Positions 1,931 to 55,636 of a stretch of 56,001 nucleotides of DNA are shown here, piece after piece. The notes below the pieces were generated by a model, which was not told where the DNA came from, ran no database searches, and worked only from the letters and a program-made list of their open reading frames with translations. This DNA is from Bacillota bacterium (GTDB lineage: Bacteria; Bacillota; Limnochordia; DTU080), in contig DUQB01000081.1 in NCBI GenBank assembly GCA_012838035.1, positions 1 through 56,001 of the forward strand. The letters are read 5' to 3'. The first letter of the stretch is position 1; each line of letters starts with the position of its first letter. The position numbers and the translations under genes were made by a program.

Positions 1931-2530
1931 ATGCACACCATAGTTACACTTCATGATGTCCGACACTGGACCGCTTGTCGTAGTGTGATCTTACATCCGG
2001 GAACCGTGTTGACCTCGTCTGCACGGCAGTGGTTGGCGGAGCATCAAGTTGCCGTACAAATAGCGGAAGCCGACCAACATGCGACGGGAGAACGTGTGGG
2101 GCAGCCAATGCAAAAGAGTGAGCTTTCGAGTGGCGAAGTGACGCAGGACAAGGTTATAGACCGCGAGCCGGTATCGGTACCTCAAGGCGCAGCGCGGGAG
2201 ACCGACCTTTTGCGTGACGATTTGCAGGCAGATGCTTCTGGTGATGCGGCAGCCGGTATGCAGCGCGCCATCATTACGGTATTGGGCAAGGATCGCGTAG
2301 GTATTATTGCTCGAGTCACTTCTCTTCTAGCGGCGGCGCACGTAAACATCCTGGATATTAATCAGACGCTGTTCGGCGATCTTTTCTCCATGAACATGGC
2401 GGTGGATATCTCCGCAGCCGATGTGCCGTTCGCCGAGTTAAAGGCCGCGGTTGAAGACGCCGGGGTGGAGTTGCAGGTCAAGGTGTTGATGCAACGGCGA
2501 GCTGTCTTCGATTACATGCATCGGGTGTAG
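1931..2530 (+). CDS. ACT-domain regulatory protein with an added N-terminal domain
   Basis: The C-terminal ~90 residues (IITVLGKDRVGIIARVTSLLAAAHVNILDINQTLFGDLFSMNMAVDI) form an ACT domain of the UPF0237 type, which is normally a stand-alone ~90-residue protein encoded just before a UPF0210/DUF711 gene, as here. This copy is 199 residues because of an N-terminal segment. Its opening, TLHDVRHWTACRSVILHPGTVLTSSARQWLAEHQVAV, resembles the short motif (vxPGxixTPxArexlxexxi) at the start of some ethanolamine-utilisation and cobalamin adenosyltransferase proteins. A charged linker of ~50 residues joins the two parts. ACT domains usually bind small metabolites such as amino acids; the ligand is unknown. 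The start ATG has AGGGG eight bases upstream. The stop overlaps the next gene's ribosome binding site, so the pair is co-translated. Confidence 0.8.
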   Translation: MHTIVTLHDVRHWTACRSVILHPGTVLTSSARQWLAEHQVAVQIAEADQHATGERVGQPMQKSELSSGEVTQDKVIDREPVSVPQGAARETDLLRDDLQADASGDAAAGMQRAIITVLGKDRVGIIARVTSLLAAAHVNILDINQTLFGDLFSMNMAVDISAADVPFAELKAAVEDAGVELQVKVLMQRRAVFDYMHRV

Positions 2531-2542
2531 GAGGATGGGCCA

Positions 2543-3907
2543 TTGACCATTTCTGCGCAAGAGATCCTCGAAACCATCCGCATGATCGAAGTGGAAAACT
2601 TCGACATCCGCACCGTTACCTTGGGCATGAACTTGCTGGGTTGCGCTCGCCCGCGAGCGAACGAGGCGGCTGCGCTCATACGCGACCGGATTTTGGACCA
2701 TGCGGCACGTTTGGTCAAAGTGGTCGACGACATCCAGGCGGAATACGGCGTACCGATTATCAATCGTCGTATTGCGGTAACCCCCATAGCTTTACTGGCG
2801 AACGCGTTGGCGCCGGGGGAAGAATGCGCCGAGTTGGGACGTGCTTTGGACGAGTCGGCTCGTGCTGCAGGCATCAACTTCATTGGTGGTTACAGCGCTT
2901 TAGTGGAAAAAGGCTACACCTTAGGCGATCAACGGCTCATCGCCTCTATTCCCGAGGTGTTGGCACAGACGGAAACAGTGTGTTCCTCGGTGAATGTCGC
3001 CTCCAGCCGGGTGGGCATCAACATGGATGCGATCCGTGTAATGGGCGGCATAGTGAAGGAAACGGCTGAACTGACCCAAGACAAGAACGGCGCGGGTTGC
3101 GCCAAATTGGTGGTTTTCGCCAACGTCCCTGAAGACAACCCGTTTATGGCGGGAGCTATGCATGGCGTCGGTCAACCGGAACTGGTGATCAACATCGGCG
3201 TGAGCGGACCCGGTGTCGTGCTGGACACTGTGCGCAAACAAAGGTCTCGCGATCTTGGCGTCTTGGCGGAAGCCATTAAGCGCACAGCGTTCAAAATCAC
3301 GCGGGTCGGTCAATTGGTCGGTCAGGAAGCATCACAGCGCTTGGGCGTACAATTCGGCGTGGTCGATCTCTCGCTGGCGCCGACGCCGGCGGTTGGCGAC
3401 AGCGTAGCCGATATTCTGGAGGCTATGGGTTTGGAGAAGTGTGGCGCACCAGGTACTACGGCGGCATTAGCCATGCTCATCGATGCCGTGAAGAAAGGCG
3501 GGGCGATGGCCTCATCCTATGTAGGCGGACTAAGTGGAGCGTTTATACCTGTCAGCGAAGATGCCGGCATGGTACGCGCCGTGGAGCAAGGAGCGCTTAC
3601 CTTGGAAAAGCTGGAAGCGATGACCGCAGTCTGCTCTGTCGGTCTCGACATGGTGGTCATACCGGGTGATACGTCGGCCGATACCATCAGCGGTATTATT
3701 GCCGATGAAATCGCCATCGGCGTCATCAATCACAAAACCACGGGAGTACGTATTGTTCCTGCGCCGGGACGCCATGTGGGGGATGTGGTCGATTTCGGCG
3801 ACCTGCTGGGTTCAGGGCCGGTGATGCCGGTGAATCGATTCCAGTGTTCCGACTTCGTGAATCGGGGCGGACGTATTCCGGCTCCGTTGCACAGCTTACG
3901 CAACTGA
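2543..3907 (+). CDS. UPF0210/DUF711 (PFL-like) protein
   Basis: The 454-residue product begins [29 protein letters not shown] and continues with [16 protein letters not shown] and GADVSGPG-like stretches, the signature of UPF0210 (DUF711). This family is structurally related to pyruvate formate-lyase-type barrels but has no established reaction. The TTG start at 2543 is chosen because AGGAGG lies eight bases upstream, straddling the stop of the ACT gene. The ACT/UPF0210 pairing is widely conserved, which suggests that the ACT partner senses a metabolite for this protein. Length is normal for the family and I see no lesions. Function remains unknown. Confidence 0.85.
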
Positions 3908-3960
3908 ACCGTGTGGGTGCGGATATCGGGCCATGCGTCGATGTACATTGAGGTGAGTAT

Positions 3961-4596
3961 GTGAGTGGTTGGTTTATTACATTAGAAGGTATTGACGGTT
4001 CGGGGAAGAGCACCCAAGCTAAGCTTTTGTACGAACGCCTGCTTGCGTGCGGTATAGCGGCGCTACTCACGCGGGAGCCCGGCGGAACCGTAGTCGGTCA
4101 GGCGTTGCGAAAGCTTTGTTTGAACGGCGGCGAAACGCTCACTTGGGAGACGGAGATGCTGCTGATGGCCGCCGACCGCGCCCAGCATGTGCAGGAAGTG
4201 ATTCGCCCCGCGTTGGAGCAAGGTTGTTGTGTGATCTGCGATCGGTACATCGATTCTACCGTGGCTTATCAGGGATATGGCGCGCAAGCGTCTTTAGCCG
4301 CCATTAGGCAGGTCAATATGATTGCTACGCAAGGTTTGGAACCGCATCTTACTTTGTTGTTCGATATCAAGCCTACGGAACGTTATGTCCGTCAAGGTGA
4401 GGTCGACCGCATCGAAAAGCGGAGTCTGGAATACCATCAACGTGTGTATGAGGGTTTTATGCAGATTGCCAGGGAGAATGAGCGGGTGGTGGTGATCCCT
4501 GCTAAGCGAAAAACACCGGCAGAGGTGGCCGCAATGGTTTGGCAGGCCTGTGTGACAAAGCTGCCACATTTAGACAGGTCTGCCGAGTTGAATTGA
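3961..4596 (+). CDS. tmk: Thymidylate kinase
   Basis: Converts dTMP to dTDP with ATP in the cytoplasm. The 211-residue sequence shows the P-loop GIDGSGKSTQAKLL at residues ~9-22, the substrate-binding DRYIDSTVAYQGYG near residue 92, and REPGGT, all diagnostic for Tmk. The GTG start at 3961 follows GAGGTGAGTAT. It stands immediately before holB, a common arrangement in Bacillota (tmk-holB-ricT-rsmI). Length is typical. Confidence 0.95.
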   Translation: MSGWFITLEGIDGSGKSTQAKLLYERLLACGIAALLTREPGGTVVGQALRKLCLNGGETLTWETEMLLMAADRAQHVQEVIRPALEQGCCVICDRYIDSTVAYQGYGAQASLAAIRQVNMIATQGLEPHLTLLFDIKPTERYVRQGEVDRIEKRSLEYHQRVYEGFMQIARENERVVVIPAKRKTPAEVAAMVWQACVTKLPHLDRSAELN

Positions 4597-4705
4597 CACC
4601 CGCTTTTTGCTTCTGATATTGTGTGGTTAGCATAGGTAGGTTTCATATGCATATGGGTAGGTGCGGCGCAACCTAGTACCTACCTTTAAAAGGAGTTGTT
4701 AGGGC
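4597..4705 (+). repeat. Short intergenic with GGTAGGT/ACCTACC inverted repeats
   Basis: Between tmk and holB there are GGTAGGT near 4636 and again near 4657, with the complement ACCTACC near 4678, giving two alternative stem-loops. CATATGCATATG (4647-4658) is a perfect 12-base palindrome. No T tract follows, so a true terminator is doubtful; the alternative stems may modulate holB, which starts just after an AAAGGAG. Confidence 0.35.
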
Positions 4706-5683
4706 GTGCCCTGGGATATAGCCGGACATGACGCGGCTGTGCGCTCCCTGCAGGCGGCATTGATCAGCGGACAAATCGGACACGCCTATATGTTTGTCGG
4801 GCCTAAAGGGATAGGCAAGGGGCGTTTAGCTTTACAGACGGCAAAAGCGCTCATGTGCGAGCTCGATAAAACGCAGGCTCCTTGCGGCGCATGTCGCGGT
4901 TGCAGGCGAGTGGAGAGCAACAATCACCCCGATCTGCATCGGGTCATGCCTGAAGGGACCGGCGTGAAGATCGATCAGATGCGTCAACTTCAGGATACTT
5001 TGGCTTTGCGTCCTTACGAGGCTAAATACAAGGTAGTCATCATAGACGATGCGGACAGCCTGACGGTGCAGGCGCAGAATAGTATGCTGAAGTCGTTTGA
5101 AGAGCCGTCGGGCGATACGGTTTATATTTTAATCGTGCATAATCCCGATGCATTGCTGCCCACCATCCACTCCCGCTGCCAAATCATCCGCTTGCAACCC
5201 GTGGCGGACGAGGTTGTAGCGGCATTGCTGCAAAAAGAGCGCGGTATGGATATGGATCAGGCTACGCTATTGGCTGCGTTAAGCGATGGCCGGCCGGGAT
5301 TGGCGCTAACCCTTGATGCCGAACAAATGCTGGCTCAACGCAAGCGTGTTGTGGAGTGGTGCGGCGCATTACGGCAGGATGGTCTGAAAGCCGTTATCAG
5401 GATTGGCGATACATTGGAAAAAGACGCGGATCTGTCAGAGTCGTTAACAGCTTTGTCTGTATGGTTACGCGATTTATGGCACTATAACGTAGATCCTCAC
5501 CTGCAGCTCGTTAACCGGGACATGCGCGATACGATCGCTCAGGAAGCGCCGTTCTGGCGTTCCGGCGCGGTGCATGCGTTGAGTGCGGTTGCTGAGGCTA
5601 AGAACCAACTGGCACGCAATGTTAATCGCCGTTTGGTACTCGACTATATGTTGATTCGCATTCAAAGGGGCCTTACCTTATGA
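4706..5683 (+). CDS. holB: DNA polymerase III subunit delta'
   Basis: Clamp-loader subunit of the replicase. The 325-residue protein has the AAA+ opening IGHAYMFVGPKGIGKGRLALQTAKAL (residues ~26-50), a zinc-binding cluster C-x8-C-x2-C-x2-C (CELDKTQAPCGACRGC, ~52-67), the acidic box VVIIDDADSLTVQAQNSMLKSFEEPSG and the sensor SRCQIIRLQP. The P-loop is only partly canonical, as is usual for delta', which does not hydrolyse ATP. GTG start with AGGAG ten bases upstream. The last four bases (ATGA) overlap the start of ricT, indicating translational coupling. Confidence 0.93.
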   Translation: MPWDIAGHDAAVRSLQAALISGQIGHAYMFVGPKGIGKGRLALQTAKALMCELDKTQAPCGACRGCRRVESNNHPDLHRVMPEGTGVKIDQMRQLQDTLALRPYEAKYKVVIIDDADSLTVQAQNSMLKSFEEPSGDTVYILIVHNPDALLPTIHSRCQIIRLQPVADEVVAALLQKERGMDMDQATLLAALSDGRPGLALTLDAEQMLAQRKRVVEWCGALRQDGLKAVIRIGDTLEKDADLSESLTALSVWLRDLWHYNVDPHLQLVNRDMRDTIAQEAPFWRSGAVHALSAVAEAKNQLARNVNRRLVLDYMLIRIQRGLTL

Positions 5684-6906
5684 TAGTAGTTGGCGTACGC
5701 TTTAAGCGTGCCGGAAAAGTGTACTATTTCGATCCTAATGATGTTCCGGTAGAGTTGGGACAACCTGTTGTTGTGGAAACCGCACGCGGGCTGGAATTAG
5801 GCGAAGTCACGGTTTTACCTCATGAAGTATCGGAAGAAGAAGTGGTGCAACCTCTGCGCAAAGTGGTGCGAGCCGCTGAGAACGAGGATCTGGCACAAAC
5901 CGAGGATAATATAAGGCTGGAGCAAGAGGCATACGCCTATGCGCTGGAACGCATCGCAGCTTTGAATCTGGAAATGAAACTGGTTGATGTGGAACTGTCT
6001 TTCGACAGAAGTAAGTTGATCTTTAGCTTCACTGCCGATCAACGCATTGATTTCCGGGAATTGGTAAAAGAGCTGGTCAGCCGGTTCCACACACGCATAG
6101 AGCTGCGCCAGATAGGCGTGCGTGACGAGGCAAAGATGCTGGGCGGCCTTGGCGTCTGCGGGAATCCGCTGTGTTGCGCCACATGGATCGGCGACTTCGC
6201 TCCGGTTTCCATACGTCATGCCAAAGACCAGGATCTTTCGATGAATCCCAACAAGATCTCCGGTGTTTGCGGTCGTTTAAAGTGCTGCTTGCGTTTCGAG
6301 GCGGAAGCATATGAAGATGCAAGGGCACGCGCTCCAAAAAACGGCGTCTACTACATGACGCCGAATGGCGAAGCTAAGGTGGTTGCCGTAAACTTGCTGC
6401 GAGAGAACTGCACGATGCAGTTGAGCGATGCTACTCGCATCAAGGTGACCTGGGTCGACTTACAGAAAATGTCTGAGGTGAAAGAACCAGCTGCTGCAAC
6501 CTATGTAGCCAATGAGCCGGAAGTTGCGCCATTGGAAGCGGATGCGCCGCTGGAATTAACAGCGGAACAGGCATCGGCTGGTGAAACGAGCTTCGTCCCT
6601 GCTGATTGGGGCGCTGCCGAGCAAGACTTTGAAGAGCATAGTGCGCCCGGCCAAAACGCCGGCAGAAAGACGGCCAAAGGCAACCGCAAACAACGTCGTT
6701 CTCGTAAAAAAGGAAATCGCACGCAGAGCGGTAATGCATCTGAAGGGCGTCGCACGGATAAAGCGGCAGTTGAGCATGAAATCGCGGCAGGAGCGGATGA
6801 AACGAAGGAAGCTCCCAGGAAGAAACGCCGTTGGCGTAAACGCAAACCTAGCGGAAACCGCAACCACAAGGAGCAATTGAAACGTGAATCACCAAAACAA
6901 GAGTGA
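5680..6906 (+). CDS. ricT: PSP1-domain protein RicT (YaaT), with a long basic tail
   Basis: In Bacillus subtilis RicT works with RicA and RicF as an Fe-S complex influencing RNase Y-dependent mRNA maturation and the sporulation phosphorelay. The N-terminal ~270 residues match: GVRFKRAGKVYYFDP at the start and the cysteine-rich core MLGGLGVCGNPLCCATWIGDF ... SGVCGRLKCCLRFE, whose cysteines are the family's cluster ligands. The last ~130 residues are unusual: Ala/Glu-rich and then strongly basic (KGNRKQRRSRKKGNR, KKRRWRKRKPSGNRN). The usual protein is ~275 residues, so this is an extension that could bind RNA (inference). It overlaps rsmI by 23 bases. Confidence 0.92.
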   Translation: MIVVGVRFKRAGKVYYFDPNDVPVELGQPVVVETARGLELGEVTVLPHEVSEEEVVQPLRKVVRAAENEDLAQTEDNIRLEQEAYAYALERIAALNLEMKLVDVELSFDRSKLIFSFTADQRIDFRELVKELVSRFHTRIELRQIGVRDEAKMLGGLGVCGNPLCCATWIGDFAPVSIRHAKDQDLSMNPNKISGVCGRLKCCLRFEAEAYEDARARAPKNGVYYMTPNGEAKVVAVNLLRENCTMQLSDATRIKVTWVDLQKMSEVKEPAAATYVANEPEVAPLEADAPLELTAEQASAGETSFVPADWGAAEQDFEEHSAPGQNAGRKTAKGNRKQRRSRKKGNRTQSGNASEGRRTDKAAVEHEIAAGADETKEAPRKKRRWRKRKPSGNRNHKEQLKRESPKQE

Positions 6907-7792
6907 TCGCGCAGGTGCCGGAGGAAATTCCGGCGCCCTTTTTGTCGTAGGTACTCCCTTGGGTAACCTGGAAGATATGACGTTGCGAGCTATCCGGACG
7001 CTGCGCGAAGTGGACCTGGTTGCAGCTGAAGATACGCGTCGTACGGCTAAGTTGCTCGCTCATCTGCAAATTCAAAAGCCTACCGTGAGCTATTATCATC
7101 ATAACGAACAGGGACGTACCGAGGATCTGATCGCTCGTCTGACGGCAGGTACCCATATTGCTTTAGTAACGGATGCCGGTATGCCCGGCATATCTGATCC
7201 GGGTGCCATTCTCATCGCTGCGGCGTTAGCTGCAAACATCCCCGTGATACCTATTCCCGGACCGACTGCTGCCACCACTGCGCTCGTCATTTCCGGTTTG
7301 CCTACCGATCGTTATGTGTTCGAAGGTTTCTTGCCGCGCAGCGGTAAGCCGCGCAAGGCTCGCTTGGTGGAGTTGGCTGCCGAAACTCGGACCATCGTGC
7401 TCTATGAGGCGCCGCACAGACTAATCCGCACCTTGAACGATCTATACGATCAGTTAGGCGAGCGTCCGGTCGCCGTGGCCCGAGAACTGACCAAGGTGCA
7501 TGAAGAGTGTATACGCGGTACGTTGTGCGAAGTGATCGCACATTTTACGGCTCATCCGCCGCGCGGCGAATTTGTAGTGGTTCTAGCGGGCAAGAAGGCG
7601 CAAGGCGAGGAGCAGGAGTGGGGGGAAGACGGGGAGCGGCAACTGCCTGCGTTGCTACGAGCAGCCCTTCAAGCGGGATTATCGCGACCGGATGCCGTAA
7701 AGGCAGTAATGAAGCAGACGGGACTGCCGCGACGAGAGGTGTACCAAGCCTCCCTTTCTCTCGATGCGTCTAACGAAGATAGCGAAAAATGA
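6884..7792 (+). CDS. rsmI: 16S rRNA (cytidine1402-2'-O)-methyltransferase
   Basis: Methylates the 2'-OH of C1402 in the decoding centre of 16S rRNA using SAM. The tetrapyrrole-methylase fold is clear: FVVGTPLGNLEDMTLRAIRTLREVDLVAAEDTR near residues 20-50, SYYHHNEQ, LVTDAGMPGISDPG, and VPIPGPTAATTALVISGLPTDRYVFEGFLPR. The GTG start at 6884 lies inside the ricT reading frame with AAGGAG ten bases before it. Length 302 is slightly above average owing to an ~18-residue N-terminal stretch. The gene ends in a 23-base tail-to-tail overlap with the DUF441 gene. Confidence 0.94.
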   Translation: MNHQNKSDRAGAGGNSGALFVVGTPLGNLEDMTLRAIRTLREVDLVAAEDTRRTAKLLAHLQIQKPTVSYYHHNEQGRTEDLIARLTAGTHIALVTDAGMPGISDPGAILIAAALAANIPVIPIPGPTAATTALVISGLPTDRYVFEGFLPRSGKPRKARLVELAAETRTIVLYEAPHRLIRTLNDLYDQLGERPVAVARELTKVHEECIRGTLCEVIAHFTAHPPRGEFVVVLAGKKAQGEEQEWGEDGERQLPALLRAALQAGLSRPDAVKAVMKQTGLPRREVYQASLSLDASNEDSEK

Positions 7793-52796: not shown

Positions 52797-52825
52797 TTGC
52801 TGATGTTGGGGGGACCTGTTACAAT
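52797..52825 (+). promoter_or_regulatory. Promoter of the HTH / unknown / AAR-like operon
   Basis: TTGCTG (52797-52802), 17-base spacer, TACAAT (52820-52825). The start point should fall near 52832, inside the tandem palindromes. Confidence 0.65.
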
Positions 52826-52826
52826 A

Positions 52827-52851
52827 AGTTGTGCACAGAGTTGTGCACAAC
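52827..52851 (+). promoter_or_regulatory. Tandem palindromic operator TTGTGCACA x2
   Basis: AGTTGTGCACA occurs twice, at 52827-52837 and 52839-52849, with a 12-base period; the second forms a perfect GTTGTGCACAAC palindrome. The sites begin one base after the -10 box, the position expected for a repressor that blocks initiation. The likely ligand is the helix-turn-helix protein encoded 34 bases downstream (inference). Confidence 0.7.
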
Positions 52852-52884
52852 CCGGTCGCCGGCGTTATATAGGAGGGATAAAAG

Positions 52885-53427
52885 ATGGATCTGCTGCGTA
52901 TCGGCGATAAACTGATCAGTCGTAGCAAGATCGCACGTTTCATCGATGCCATCCTTCAGTTGCGCATTCAGGGCGCATCGCAACAGGAAGTCGCGAATGA
53001 GTTGCGTGTCGACCGTGCGTTCGTATCGCGGTTGGAAACCTTGGGAGAGGTGCGCAAGGGCGGTCGCATAGCCATCGTAGGTTTTCCTATCGGGAACAGA
53101 GACGAGATTCTGCAAGTCGCCCAGGAGGAAGGCGTTGATTACTGCCTGATACTGACGGATAAAGAACGTTGGGATTGGCCGAATCGCCTGAGCGGCGCCG
53201 AGGTGGTGAACCAATTGTTCGATCTCATCTCGGAGATTAAGGAGTACGATAATGTCATTTTTATCGGCTCAGATAAGCGGATTCGGTTGGTGGAGACCAT
53301 TTTGGGGCGAGACATGGTTGTAGCCGTTCAGATTGGCACATCTCCCATTAAAGCGGACGTAACGCTTGATCCTGACTACATGCGGGAAGTGATACACCGT
53401 CTGAAGACCGAGTCCGAGTCGGTATGA
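52885..53427 (+). CDS. Helix-turn-helix transcriptional regulator with a small C-terminal domain
   Basis: 180 residues. The N-terminal ~60 contain a helix-turn-helix (IQGASQQEVANELRVDRAFVSRLETLGE). The C-terminal ~115 form an alpha/beta domain (GRIAIVGFPIGNRDEILQVAQEEGVDYCLILTDKERWDW, VIFIGSDKRIRLVETILGRDMVVAVQIG) that I do not recognise but which could bind a ligand. AGGAGGG seven bases before ATG. It is the first gene of the operon and probably binds the tandem palindromes in its own promoter region. Confidence 0.8.
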   Translation: MDLLRIGDKLISRSKIARFIDAILQLRIQGASQQEVANELRVDRAFVSRLETLGEVRKGGRIAIVGFPIGNRDEILQVAQEEGVDYCLILTDKERWDWPNRLSGAEVVNQLFDLISEIKEYDNVIFIGSDKRIRLVETILGRDMVVAVQIGTSPIKADVTLDPDYMREVIHRLKTESESV

Positions 53428-53477
53428 ACCAAACCAATCGCATCTAGGCAACAGCATTCTGATGGGGGGGACATCCT

Positions 53478-54392
53478 CTGAAACACGTAGTGAGCGTAAG
53501 TATCGGTTCATCAAGCCGGAACCATCGGTATGAGGCGGAGATCCTCGGAGAACCTGTTCTCATAGAACGCATCGGCACCGATGGTGACATTGACAAAGCC
53601 ATCAAGCTGATGCAGGAGCTGGACGGCAAGGTGGACGCTTTTGGTATGGGCGGCATCGATATATGGCTGTTTTCCGGCACACGGCGGTACGCATTTCGCG
53701 ATGCCAAGCGCATATTGGCTGCAGTGCGCCATACGCCCATCCTTGACGGCAGCGGCTTAAAGAATTCATTGGAGGCTTGGGTGGTAAACTACATCGATAG
53801 CGACGGTGGTATCCCGCTGAAGGGAAAGCGTGTAATGATGACCGCCTCGGTCGATCGTAACGGCATGACCAAAGCTCTTAACGCTTTAGGTTGCCAAATG
53901 CTCTACGGCGACCTTGGATTCGGCGTAGGACTACCGATCAAAATCCAAAGCCCTAAAGTGATGGATGTCGTGGCCGGCATGCTGTTGCCGTTATTTGTAC
54001 AGCTGCCCTTTAAATGGTTATATCCCACAGGCGAGAAACAACTGGATTCGACCCCGCGCTATGGCGGCTGGTTCGCATGGGCGGACGTCATTGCCGGCGA
54101 TTTCCTGTATATTTGGCGCTATATGCCGGAGCGTCTGGACGGCAAGATCATCATTACCAATACCGTTACGCCGGAAAACGTCAGCGAGCTTAAGAAACGC
54201 GGAGTAGCCTACCTGGTTACCACAACGCCCAACTTGGGCGGCCGCTCGTTCGGTACCAACGTCATTGAGGCCGTGTTAGTGGCTGTTTCCGGTAAGCGAC
54301 CTGAGGAACTGAACGGTGATGATTATCTTAGATTAATGCGCGATGTTGGTTTTACTCCGCGCATTGAGCAGCTAAACGGCAGGACGGCTTAA
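53478..54392 (+). CDS. Conserved protein of unknown function, between the regulator and the AAR-like enzyme
   Basis: About 304 residues. The opening KHVVSVSIGSSSRNHRYEAEILGEPVLIERIGTDGDIDKAIKLMQELDGKVDAFGMGGIDIWLFSGTRRYAFRDA suggests an enzyme core. PLKGKRVMMTASVDRNGMTKALNALGCQMLYGDLGFGVGLPI looks like a Rossmann-type strand-loop-helix. Homologues are, as I recall, sometimes named quinate 5-dehydrogenase, but I see no basis for that activity. CTG 53478 is my preferred start: a run of seven G ends seven bases upstream and it gives the natural KHVVSVSIGS beginning. GTG 53490 is the conservative alternative but has no ribosome binding site at normal distance. Confidence 0.75.
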   Translation: MKHVVSVSIGSSSRNHRYEAEILGEPVLIERIGTDGDIDKAIKLMQELDGKVDAFGMGGIDIWLFSGTRRYAFRDAKRILAAVRHTPILDGSGLKNSLEAWVVNYIDSDGGIPLKGKRVMMTASVDRNGMTKALNALGCQMLYGDLGFGVGLPIKIQSPKVMDVVAGMLLPLFVQLPFKWLYPTGEKQLDSTPRYGGWFAWADVIAGDFLYIWRYMPERLDGKIIITNTVTPENVSELKKRGVAYLVTTTPNLGGRSFGTNVIEAVLVAVSGKRPEELNGDDYLRLMRDVGFTPRIEQLNGRTA

Positions 54393-54499
54393 GACCTACG
54401 GTCGGAAGCATTGTGCGGCGCGAGTTGAGCCGAACACGATGGTGCCTTTCGGCAGGCATGTTGATAAGGAGTACTCACATCCATTCAGGAGGTCCCAGG

Positions 54500-55636
54500 T
54501 TGCAAAAATTCGGATTTATTATCCACCCCATTGATGTAAAGGACGTAGCACGCAAATTTGCGGTGGCCAGTCGCTTTCCCGATCATGTGATTGAGAGAGT
54601 TCTGCCGTTGGTCCCTGCGTTGACTACTTCACATATCACAGGTGTACAGTCGCTTAACGGCGCCAAGGCGGAGGGTTGGTTCGTCAGCGTCCCGCTTACA
54701 CCTAGGCTCATGATGGAGAAACTGCCGGAAGCCAAGGTCATCAAGCGCATCATTTCAGCCGGTCGCAAGGCGGCCGACCAGGGGGCTAAGATCGTCGGTC
54801 TCGGCGCGTTTACGTCTGTGGTCGGCGATGCCGGGATTACGGTGGCGAACAACCTGGATATTGCGGTCACCACCGGTAATACCTTTACGGCCGCTACGGC
54901 GTTGATGGGTATCGAGTACGCGGCGCAGCGGTTGGAGATCGATTTAAGCAGGCAAACTATTGCCGTTCTGGGCGCTTCAGGTTCCATAGGAAAGGCCTGT
55001 GCGCGCATCCTTGCACAAAAGGGCATGCAGGTGACGATTGTGGCCAGAGACCGTAGCCGATTGGAAGAGCTGGCCCGTTTGATTCATGAGGAATCAGGCG
55101 CGGATGTACGCATCGAAACCGATTTGTCTGCTGCCGTGCGTTCTGCAGGCGTAGTCGTCGCCGTCACCAGTGCGATGGAAGCAGTGATCGATGCAGGCGA
55201 TATTCGTCCGGGAGCCATCGTGTGTGATGTAAGCCGTCCTCGCAACGTATCGAAGGCCGTCGCCCAGCAACGGCAGGATGTACTGGTATTTGAGGGCGGC
55301 GTTGTTTCGGTGCCGGGTCAAGTTGATTTCGGCCTGAACTTCGGATTTCCCCCGGGAACCTCCTATGCCTGTATGGCCGAGACAATGATTCTGGCGCTGG
55401 AGGGCAGATATGAGAACTATAGCTTGGGACGGGATTTGGATGTGGCTAAGGTAAGGGAGATTTCGGCGTTGGCCGAGAAGCACGGTTTTAAACTGGCCGG
55501 CTTACGCAGTTTCGAAGCTGCGGTTACCAATGCCGCGTTCGAAAAGGTGAAGGCGCAACTGCATCTGCAGAAACGTAAAACGCCCTTCCTGGAAGAAAGA
55601 CCCGTTGGTACGGCATACGGCGGCAAAACGCCGTAA
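54500..55636 (+). CDS. Homologue of cyanobacterial acyl-ACP reductase (AAR)
   Basis: 378 residues from TTG 54500 (AGGAGG seven bases upstream); the track's 29 extra residues are unsupported. Blocks match AAR of cyanobacteria: QKFGFIIHP at the N-terminus, KIVGLGAFTSVV (AAR: ISALGGFTSII), VTTGNTFTAATA (FTTGNTHTAY), the NADPH loop IAVLGASGSIGKACARIL (~residue 158), GGVVSVPG, and SYACMAETMILALEGRYENYSLGRD with Cys291 (AAR: [25 protein letters not shown], whose Cys carries the acyl thioester). AAR reduces acyl-ACP to fatty aldehyde. A similar reaction here is inferred; the acyl donor may differ. A shikimate-dehydrogenase-type label would reflect only the Rossmann fold. Confidence 0.85.
   Translation: MQKFGFIIHPIDVKDVARKFAVASRFPDHVIERVLPLVPALTTSHITGVQSLNGAKAEGWFVSVPLTPRLMMEKLPEAKVIKRIISAGRKAADQGAKIVGLGAFTSVVGDAGITVANNLDIAVTTGNTFTAATALMGIEYAAQRLEIDLSRQTIAVLGASGSIGKACARILAQKGMQVTIVARDRSRLEELARLIHEESGADVRIETDLSAAVRSAGVVVAVTSAMEAVIDAGDIRPGAIVCDVSRPRNVSKAVAQQRQDVLVFEGGVVSVPGQVDFGLNFGFPPGTSYACMAETMILALEGRYENYSLGRDLDVAKVREISALAEKHGFKLAGLRSFEAAVTNAAFEKVKAQLHLQKRKTPFLEERPVGTAYGGKTP

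Follow-up and report, generated by a model that had tools for sequence, protein, structure and literature searches.

A conserved operator-associated operon encoding an acyl-ACP reductase-type protein in Bacillota and its candidate transaminase partner

The window analyzed in this study is a 56,001-nucleotide stretch of contig DUQB01000081.1 from a Bacillota bacterium of the Limnochordia lineage DTU080 (assembly GCA_012838035.1). Close to its end, three forward-strand genes encode a helix-turn-helix (HTH) regulator, a conserved protein with no assigned function (the middle protein), and P0003, a 378-aa protein related to cyanobacterial acyl-(acyl carrier protein) reductase (AAR) and to the reductase half of PigE. 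With slightly better than even confidence, we propose that these genes belong to an autorepressed regulon in which acyl-ACP would be reduced to an aldehyde and, in many relatives, the aldehyde converted to a primary amine by transamination. Homology, fold, active-site residues, gene order, the shared operator and the occurrence of the reductase as a standalone protein or a fusion were computed; from these we infer catalysis, substrate, direction and repression.

P0003 (54500-55636, forward strand, TTG start) had been described as AAR-like from a preliminary reading of the sequence, and the quoted motifs LGAFTSV, TTGNT, GASGSIG and YACMAETM are all present. In the NCBIfam search, the acyl-ACP reductase model revealed whole-length homology to AAR far beyond chance (E = 3.5e-37, 128.5 bits). 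However, the score (128.5-128.6 bits) was below the AAR equivalog cutoff of 449.7 bits (TIGR04058), and the PigE model scored higher (E = 5e-72, 243.5 bits), matching with its reductase half only. The relationship to AAR thus stands, but assignment to the strict AAR family does not. The PigE equivalog cutoff of 850 bits (NF053554) was not reached either, and the transaminase domain is absent from the protein. Synechococcus elongatus was among the control genomes matching TIGR04058, and one control genome exceeded the cutoff. A sequence search of the PDB placed a PigE chain first (5.7e-40) and Synechococcus AAR next (2.9e-26). The same order was obtained (4.7e-61 and 1.7e-44) with a family profile of 35 rows, comprising the window protein and relatives from Bacillota, Actinomycetota, Armatimonadota and Sumerlaeota. 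By both profile and PDB searches, P0003 scored higher against PigE than against cyanobacterial AAR. In a quick-search tree, Bacillota fusions grouped apart from standalone proteins and the window protein fell within its own family; the single cyanobacterial sequence formed a very long branch, and the deep order was not used.

The AlphaFold model of P0003 (pLDDT 92) was compared with known structures using Foldseek, and the top seven matches were all Synechococcus AAR (E from 9e-24 to 8e-20, TM about 0.72/0.79-0.80), with PDB entries 6jzu, 6jzy, 6jzz and 6jzq matched first. In the alignment, Cys291 (codon 55370-55372, within YACMAETM) matches the Cys in FACFAEAM of Synechococcus AAR, the catalytic residue named C294 (PMC9594044). 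It is invariant in the 35-row alignment, as are G158, G161, I163 and G164 of the NAD(P)H-binding motif GASGSIG (residues 158-164, 54971-54991). Sequence, motifs and predicted fold support the assignment of P0003 as an AAR-type thioester reductase, and by the agreement of alignment and modeled fold Cys291 is the active-site residue, as had been proposed by reference to Cys294 of the Synechococcus enzyme. P0003 would then act as an NAD(P)H-dependent acyl-thioester reductase, most likely on acyl-ACP: Cys291 would accept the acyl group, and hydride transfer would then free it as an aldehyde.

The HTH gene (52885-53427, forward strand) encodes a 180-aa presumed autorepressor with an N-terminal HTH and a C-terminal domain, remotely resembling the archaeal Tfx regulators. 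Both domains are covered by a weak profile match to the archaeal transcription regulator 8hnp (E = 1.3e-4, profile positions 23-143). In contrast to Tfx, the HTH protein is bacterial, appears autoregulatory from the operator position, and lies far under the family cutoff (17.1 bits against 60.25 for TIGR00721). Two TGTGCACA palindromes, 12 bp apart, are found 5′ of most HTH genes in the 20 bp form TGTGCACA-N4-TGTGCACA. In the window, the predicted operator TGTGCACA-GAGT-TGTGCACA occupies 52830-52849 and is by far the best site (29.5 bits, runner-up 10.6), overlapping the promoter and, as expected from its location, the transcription start. This agrees with the operator-controlled operon suggested in the preliminary description. 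The operator begins four bases beyond the -10 element, and the HTH protein is therefore presumed to repress its own operon by binding TGTGCACA-N4-TGTGCACA over the promoter of the three genes. The promoter-like element (52797-52825, forward strand) was read by eye and is tentative, with a weak -35 (TTGCTG, 52797-52802), a 17-nt spacer and an extended -10 (TGtTACAAT, hexamer 52820-52825). For the single promoter suggested for all three genes, the extended -10 is recognizable, but the -35 is poor and the element was not called by a consensus promoter scanner.

The 22-base form of the operator has one perfect match in the genome of the window and none in a backwards-read control. Across 61 genomes of the same class, 24 places carry the degenerate exact pattern, and the backwards-read control gave none. 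Judging by position, and by gene maps where these were drawn, 23 of the 24 sites precede an HTH-middle operon or a gene for a transaminase-reductase fusion; the remaining one is within an unrelated gene of the window's own genome. A scoring matrix was trained on the HTH-gene operators of the window and of loci from a genome collection and applied, at a threshold of at least 15 bits, to genes outside the training set. Matches were found for 18/20 class HTH genes, 10/19 fusion genes, 7/22 separate PigE-type transaminases and 1/593 control genes. Some class genomes are present twice under different locus names (e.g., L053/L071), and full independence therefore cannot be assumed either among the class sets or between these and the training set. 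The lone control match (locus L126, 27.3 bits) precedes fabH and heads a fabH/fabK-like/fabD/fabG/fabF operon (2218-7346) immediately 5′ of HTH-middle-AAR. A fatty-acid-synthesis operon under the operator, in this one case, fits an acyl-ACP substrate. Other operator-like sites in the window's own and other genomes (G000 C32, C150 and C166; L206, L208-L211 and L242) lay inside genes or beside unrelated ones, did not recur, and were rejected. A search of open-licence papers for the operator, the regulator or AAR in Clostridia returned nothing on the present regulon. The co-regulated gene set is widely conserved and apparently undescribed.

The distribution of the reductase points to a likely partner. 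Among the 61 class genomes, 23 encode a standalone reductase, 34 a transaminase-reductase fusion, four neither, and none both. The fusions are about 840-970 aa long with the class III transaminase at the N-terminus, and many genomes with a fusion carry an HTH-middle operon without AAR between dusB and greA. In the first 41 class genomes, searched with the transaminase half of a fusion, a separate homologue (at least 300 bits) was found in 16 of 21 genomes with a standalone reductase versus one of 19 with a fusion; as the genomes cluster by family, the Fisher value for this contrast cannot be read as a true probability. Separate transaminases from three families scored 501-511 bits against PigE versus 409-426 against putrescine aminotransferase, and orthologues with 51-59% identity occur in Thermoanaerobacter, Thermoanaerobacterium, Tepidanaerobacteraceae, Pelosinus and others. 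The seven operator-bearing transaminases belong to one family of the class (L191, L194 and L197) and to other lineages (L219, L223, L225 and L227). The class III transaminase, fused to the reductase in 34/61 class genomes and encoded by a separate gene sharing the operator in other lineages, is the likely partner of the reductase, rather than the middle gene. In relatives, the operator would control this transaminase, fused or separate, and the aldehyde may be converted to an amine by analogy with TamH and PigE; the regulon as a whole would most likely make a primary amine from acyl-ACP via an aldehyde.

Two further arrangements of transaminase genes were observed. In one family of the class, a second class III transaminase gene directly adjoins the fusion gene (L051:5906-7546, L053:9006-10724). 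Fusions on alphaproteobacterial plasmids (L185:2621-5326, L188:2660-5248) have genes with VPLPA-CTERM sorting domains in their vicinity, and no pigment cluster was seen in the stretches inspected.

TamH and PigE, both from pigment pathways, couple the same type of reductase domain, with this Cys conserved, to a class III transaminase (PMC9594044, PMC8341465). TamH, from the pathway of tambjamine YP1 in Pseudoalteromonas tunicata (PMC9594044), shares with P0003 the reductase type with GxxGxxG and a catalytic Cys, and its transaminase-then-reductase domain order is that of the fused relatives of the window gene in the same class. However, the TamH gene lies in a pigment cluster that also supplies a dedicated acyl-loading enzyme, TamA, whereas the window reductase is a standalone protein whose conserved chromosomal operon also encodes the middle protein and an HTH regulator of its own. 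PigE, from prodigiosin synthesis (PMC8341465, PDB 4ppm), is the top family model and the top PDB sequence relative, with Cys296 as its conserved Cys. In contrast to the window protein, which corresponds to the reductase half only, PigE is a single protein of a pigment cluster with the reductase domain preceding the transaminase. Cyanobacterial AAR (TIGR04058; 6jzq/6jzu/6jzy/6jzz) is similar in whole-length homology, predicted fold, the Cys291-Cys294 correspondence and the NAD(P)H motif, but differs in operon context and regulation, in score and in its oxygenase partner.

The gene order dusB-[HTH-middle-AAR]-greA-lysS is found repeatedly in Bacillota and in other phyla. At least 523 loci encoding the middle protein were identified in GTDB species genomes when that protein served as the query. 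In the best 80 of these, HTH was adjacent in 60 and AAR in 61; greA lay a short distance downstream in 57, and dusB a short distance upstream in 43. Conservation of the three-gene order thus extends across Bacillota and beyond. Carriers include Thermoanaerobacter, Thermoanaerobacterium, Tepidanaerobacter, Caldicoprobacter, Pelosinus, Armatimonadota, Aquicultor and Sumerlaeota. When 24 genomes, picked largely because AAR was missing or altered at the locus, were searched, 17 had a reductase elsewhere or nearby, many as fusions. In several lineages, degenerate AAR-like or unrecognizable proteins lacking the Cys and Gly motifs were seen between the middle gene and greA at L082:8891-9886, L105:3654-4391, L114:8830-9900, L093, L131 and L134.

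Several observations weigh against the proposed acyl-ACP-to-amine regulon. In several lineages, HTH and the middle protein are retained although the AAR of the locus is absent or no longer carries the Cys and Gly motifs, and the reductase is therefore not an invariable output of the regulon. The standalone, fusion and transaminase associations track families and are not independent events. Over half of the separate transaminases tested had no recognizable operator. TamH did not reduce free acyl-CoA in vitro (PMC9594044). In the window's own genome, the best class III transaminase homologue (G000:C99) scored higher against putrescine aminotransferase (479.5 bits) than against PigE (359.5 bits), and no operator was found for it; the amine step is consequently not directly supported there.

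In a first alternative, the aldehyde would instead end up in a different reduced lipid, such as a fatty alcohol, ether lipid or wax, and genomes with a standalone reductase would not share the transaminase link of their relatives. In the 94%-complete assembly of the window's own genome, no PigE-type transaminase reached the threshold used, five of the 21 standalone class genomes lack a separate one, and more than half of the separate transaminases had no operator. However, in about five lineages the operator is also found in front of separate PigE-like transaminases, and no alternative enzyme recurs beside AAR. We consider this explanation unlikely, although more probable than the other alternatives. 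The best transaminase homologue in the window's own genome occupies the same gene order as a PigE-like one of a sister genus: at loci L195:3428-4714 and L192:3494-4912, beside a probable arginyl-tRNA synthetase, the gene is putrescine-type in the window's own genome and PigE-type in the sister genus.

Reduction of thioesters with NAD(P)H is reversible, and the pathway may run from amine to aldehyde, with the AAR-type enzyme serving as an acylating aldehyde dehydrogenase in a catabolic or protective regulon induced by an amine or aldehyde. A dedicated presumed repressor for the operon and the additional relationship of the separate transaminases to putrescine aminotransferase are in line with this direction. 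It is nevertheless improbable, as the characterized homologues AAR, PigE and TamH run reductively (PMC9594044, PMC8341465) and the operator precedes a fatty-acid biosynthesis operon in one genome.

The middle gene (53478-54392, forward strand, about 304 aa) was found in 60 of 61 class genomes. Its product gave nothing convincing by sequence in Pfam, NCBIfam, PDB or plasmids; for the annotation name quinate 5-dehydrogenase, open-licence papers contained no relevant literature. Matches of the predicted structure (pLDDT 92) were only weak and had high rmsd; they comprised AAR, a carmabin-pathway domain, malic enzymes and periplasmic binding proteins. The hhalign comparison with the AAR profile returned a probability of 1.8% (p = 0.028), and a diverged AAR paralogue is only a lead. 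Invariant polar residues of the protein, numbered from Lys 53481, include R13, R30, D48, D89, K94, E98, D125, R126, D144, D207 and N260, a pattern that would favor a catalytic or ligand-binding role. Because the middle protein is kept more strictly than AAR, and is retained even without it, it would act either within the route as a core enzyme or together with the regulator as its sensor partner. The earlier suggestion that it supplies the next or previous enzymatic step does not simply hold, since the gene is also present where AAR is elsewhere, degenerate or missing.

In a third alternative, the AAR-like protein would serve the middle protein chiefly as a structural or regulatory partner, and catalysis would be secondary. 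Versions without the Cys or Gly motif persist at the same place in several lineages, and the middle-protein fold weakly resembles AAR and related two-domain dehydrogenases. Catalytic residues that are invariant in the 35 rows, drawn from several phyla, are not expected from selection for structure alone, which makes this explanation very improbable.

Finally, a cyanobacterial-type alkane route, in which AAR would feed an aldehyde-deformylating oxygenase, is hardly credible despite the AAR homology and fold: the TIGR04058 cutoff was missed, PigE scored higher, and the oxygenase (PF11266, with Synechococcus elongatus among the matching control genomes) was found in none of the 41 class genomes searched, the window's own included, so the cyanobacterial pathway invoked at the outset is not the right comparison. 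The absence of an oxygenase partner in the window, noted in the preliminary description, accordingly extends to these genomes. Of the regulated route from acyl thioesters to aldehydes proposed there, the AAR-type family and the operator-controlled operon hold, but the alkane comparison and the middle gene as a simple partner do not.

All three genes are present at the places originally claimed (HTH at 52885-53427, the middle gene ending at 54392 and the AAR-like gene at 54500-55636), with gaps of about 50 and 107 bases between them. The start of the middle gene is probably CTG 53478 and not the in-frame GTG 53490, which corrects the earlier start, since relatives begin with MKHVVSVSIG and the window reads LKHVVSVSIG at this position. 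A G-rich stretch resembling a ribosome-binding site lies directly 5′ of this CTG. The sole same-strand terminator-like pattern falls within the middle gene, and such patterns were no commoner than in shuffled sequences. The window stops at the contig end inside a repeat; the AAR gene of relatives is instead followed by greA and lysS. This contig end (55860-56001), probably an insertion element, is present a second time, at 99% identity, close to the end of contig C72.

A broader interpretation, which we put forward tentatively as possible rather than probable, is that of a widespread primary-metabolic route in anaerobic Bacillota and allied phyla. It would lead from acyl-ACP to a long-chain primary amine or aminolipid precursor and would be controlled by a repressor and a TGTGCACA operator of its own; the middle protein would represent a new family acting on, carrying or sensing the aldehyde or amine. 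AAR-type chemistry has so far been associated with cyanobacterial alkanes and two pigment pathways; here, it is placed in a chromosomal regulon across many anaerobic lineages. The neighboring middle-protein family is described in none of the libraries searched, yet it is present in nearly every genome of the class. If true, many anaerobes would possess, together with a lipid or signaling product that has not yet been looked for, a regulated route from acyl-ACP through an aldehyde to an amine.

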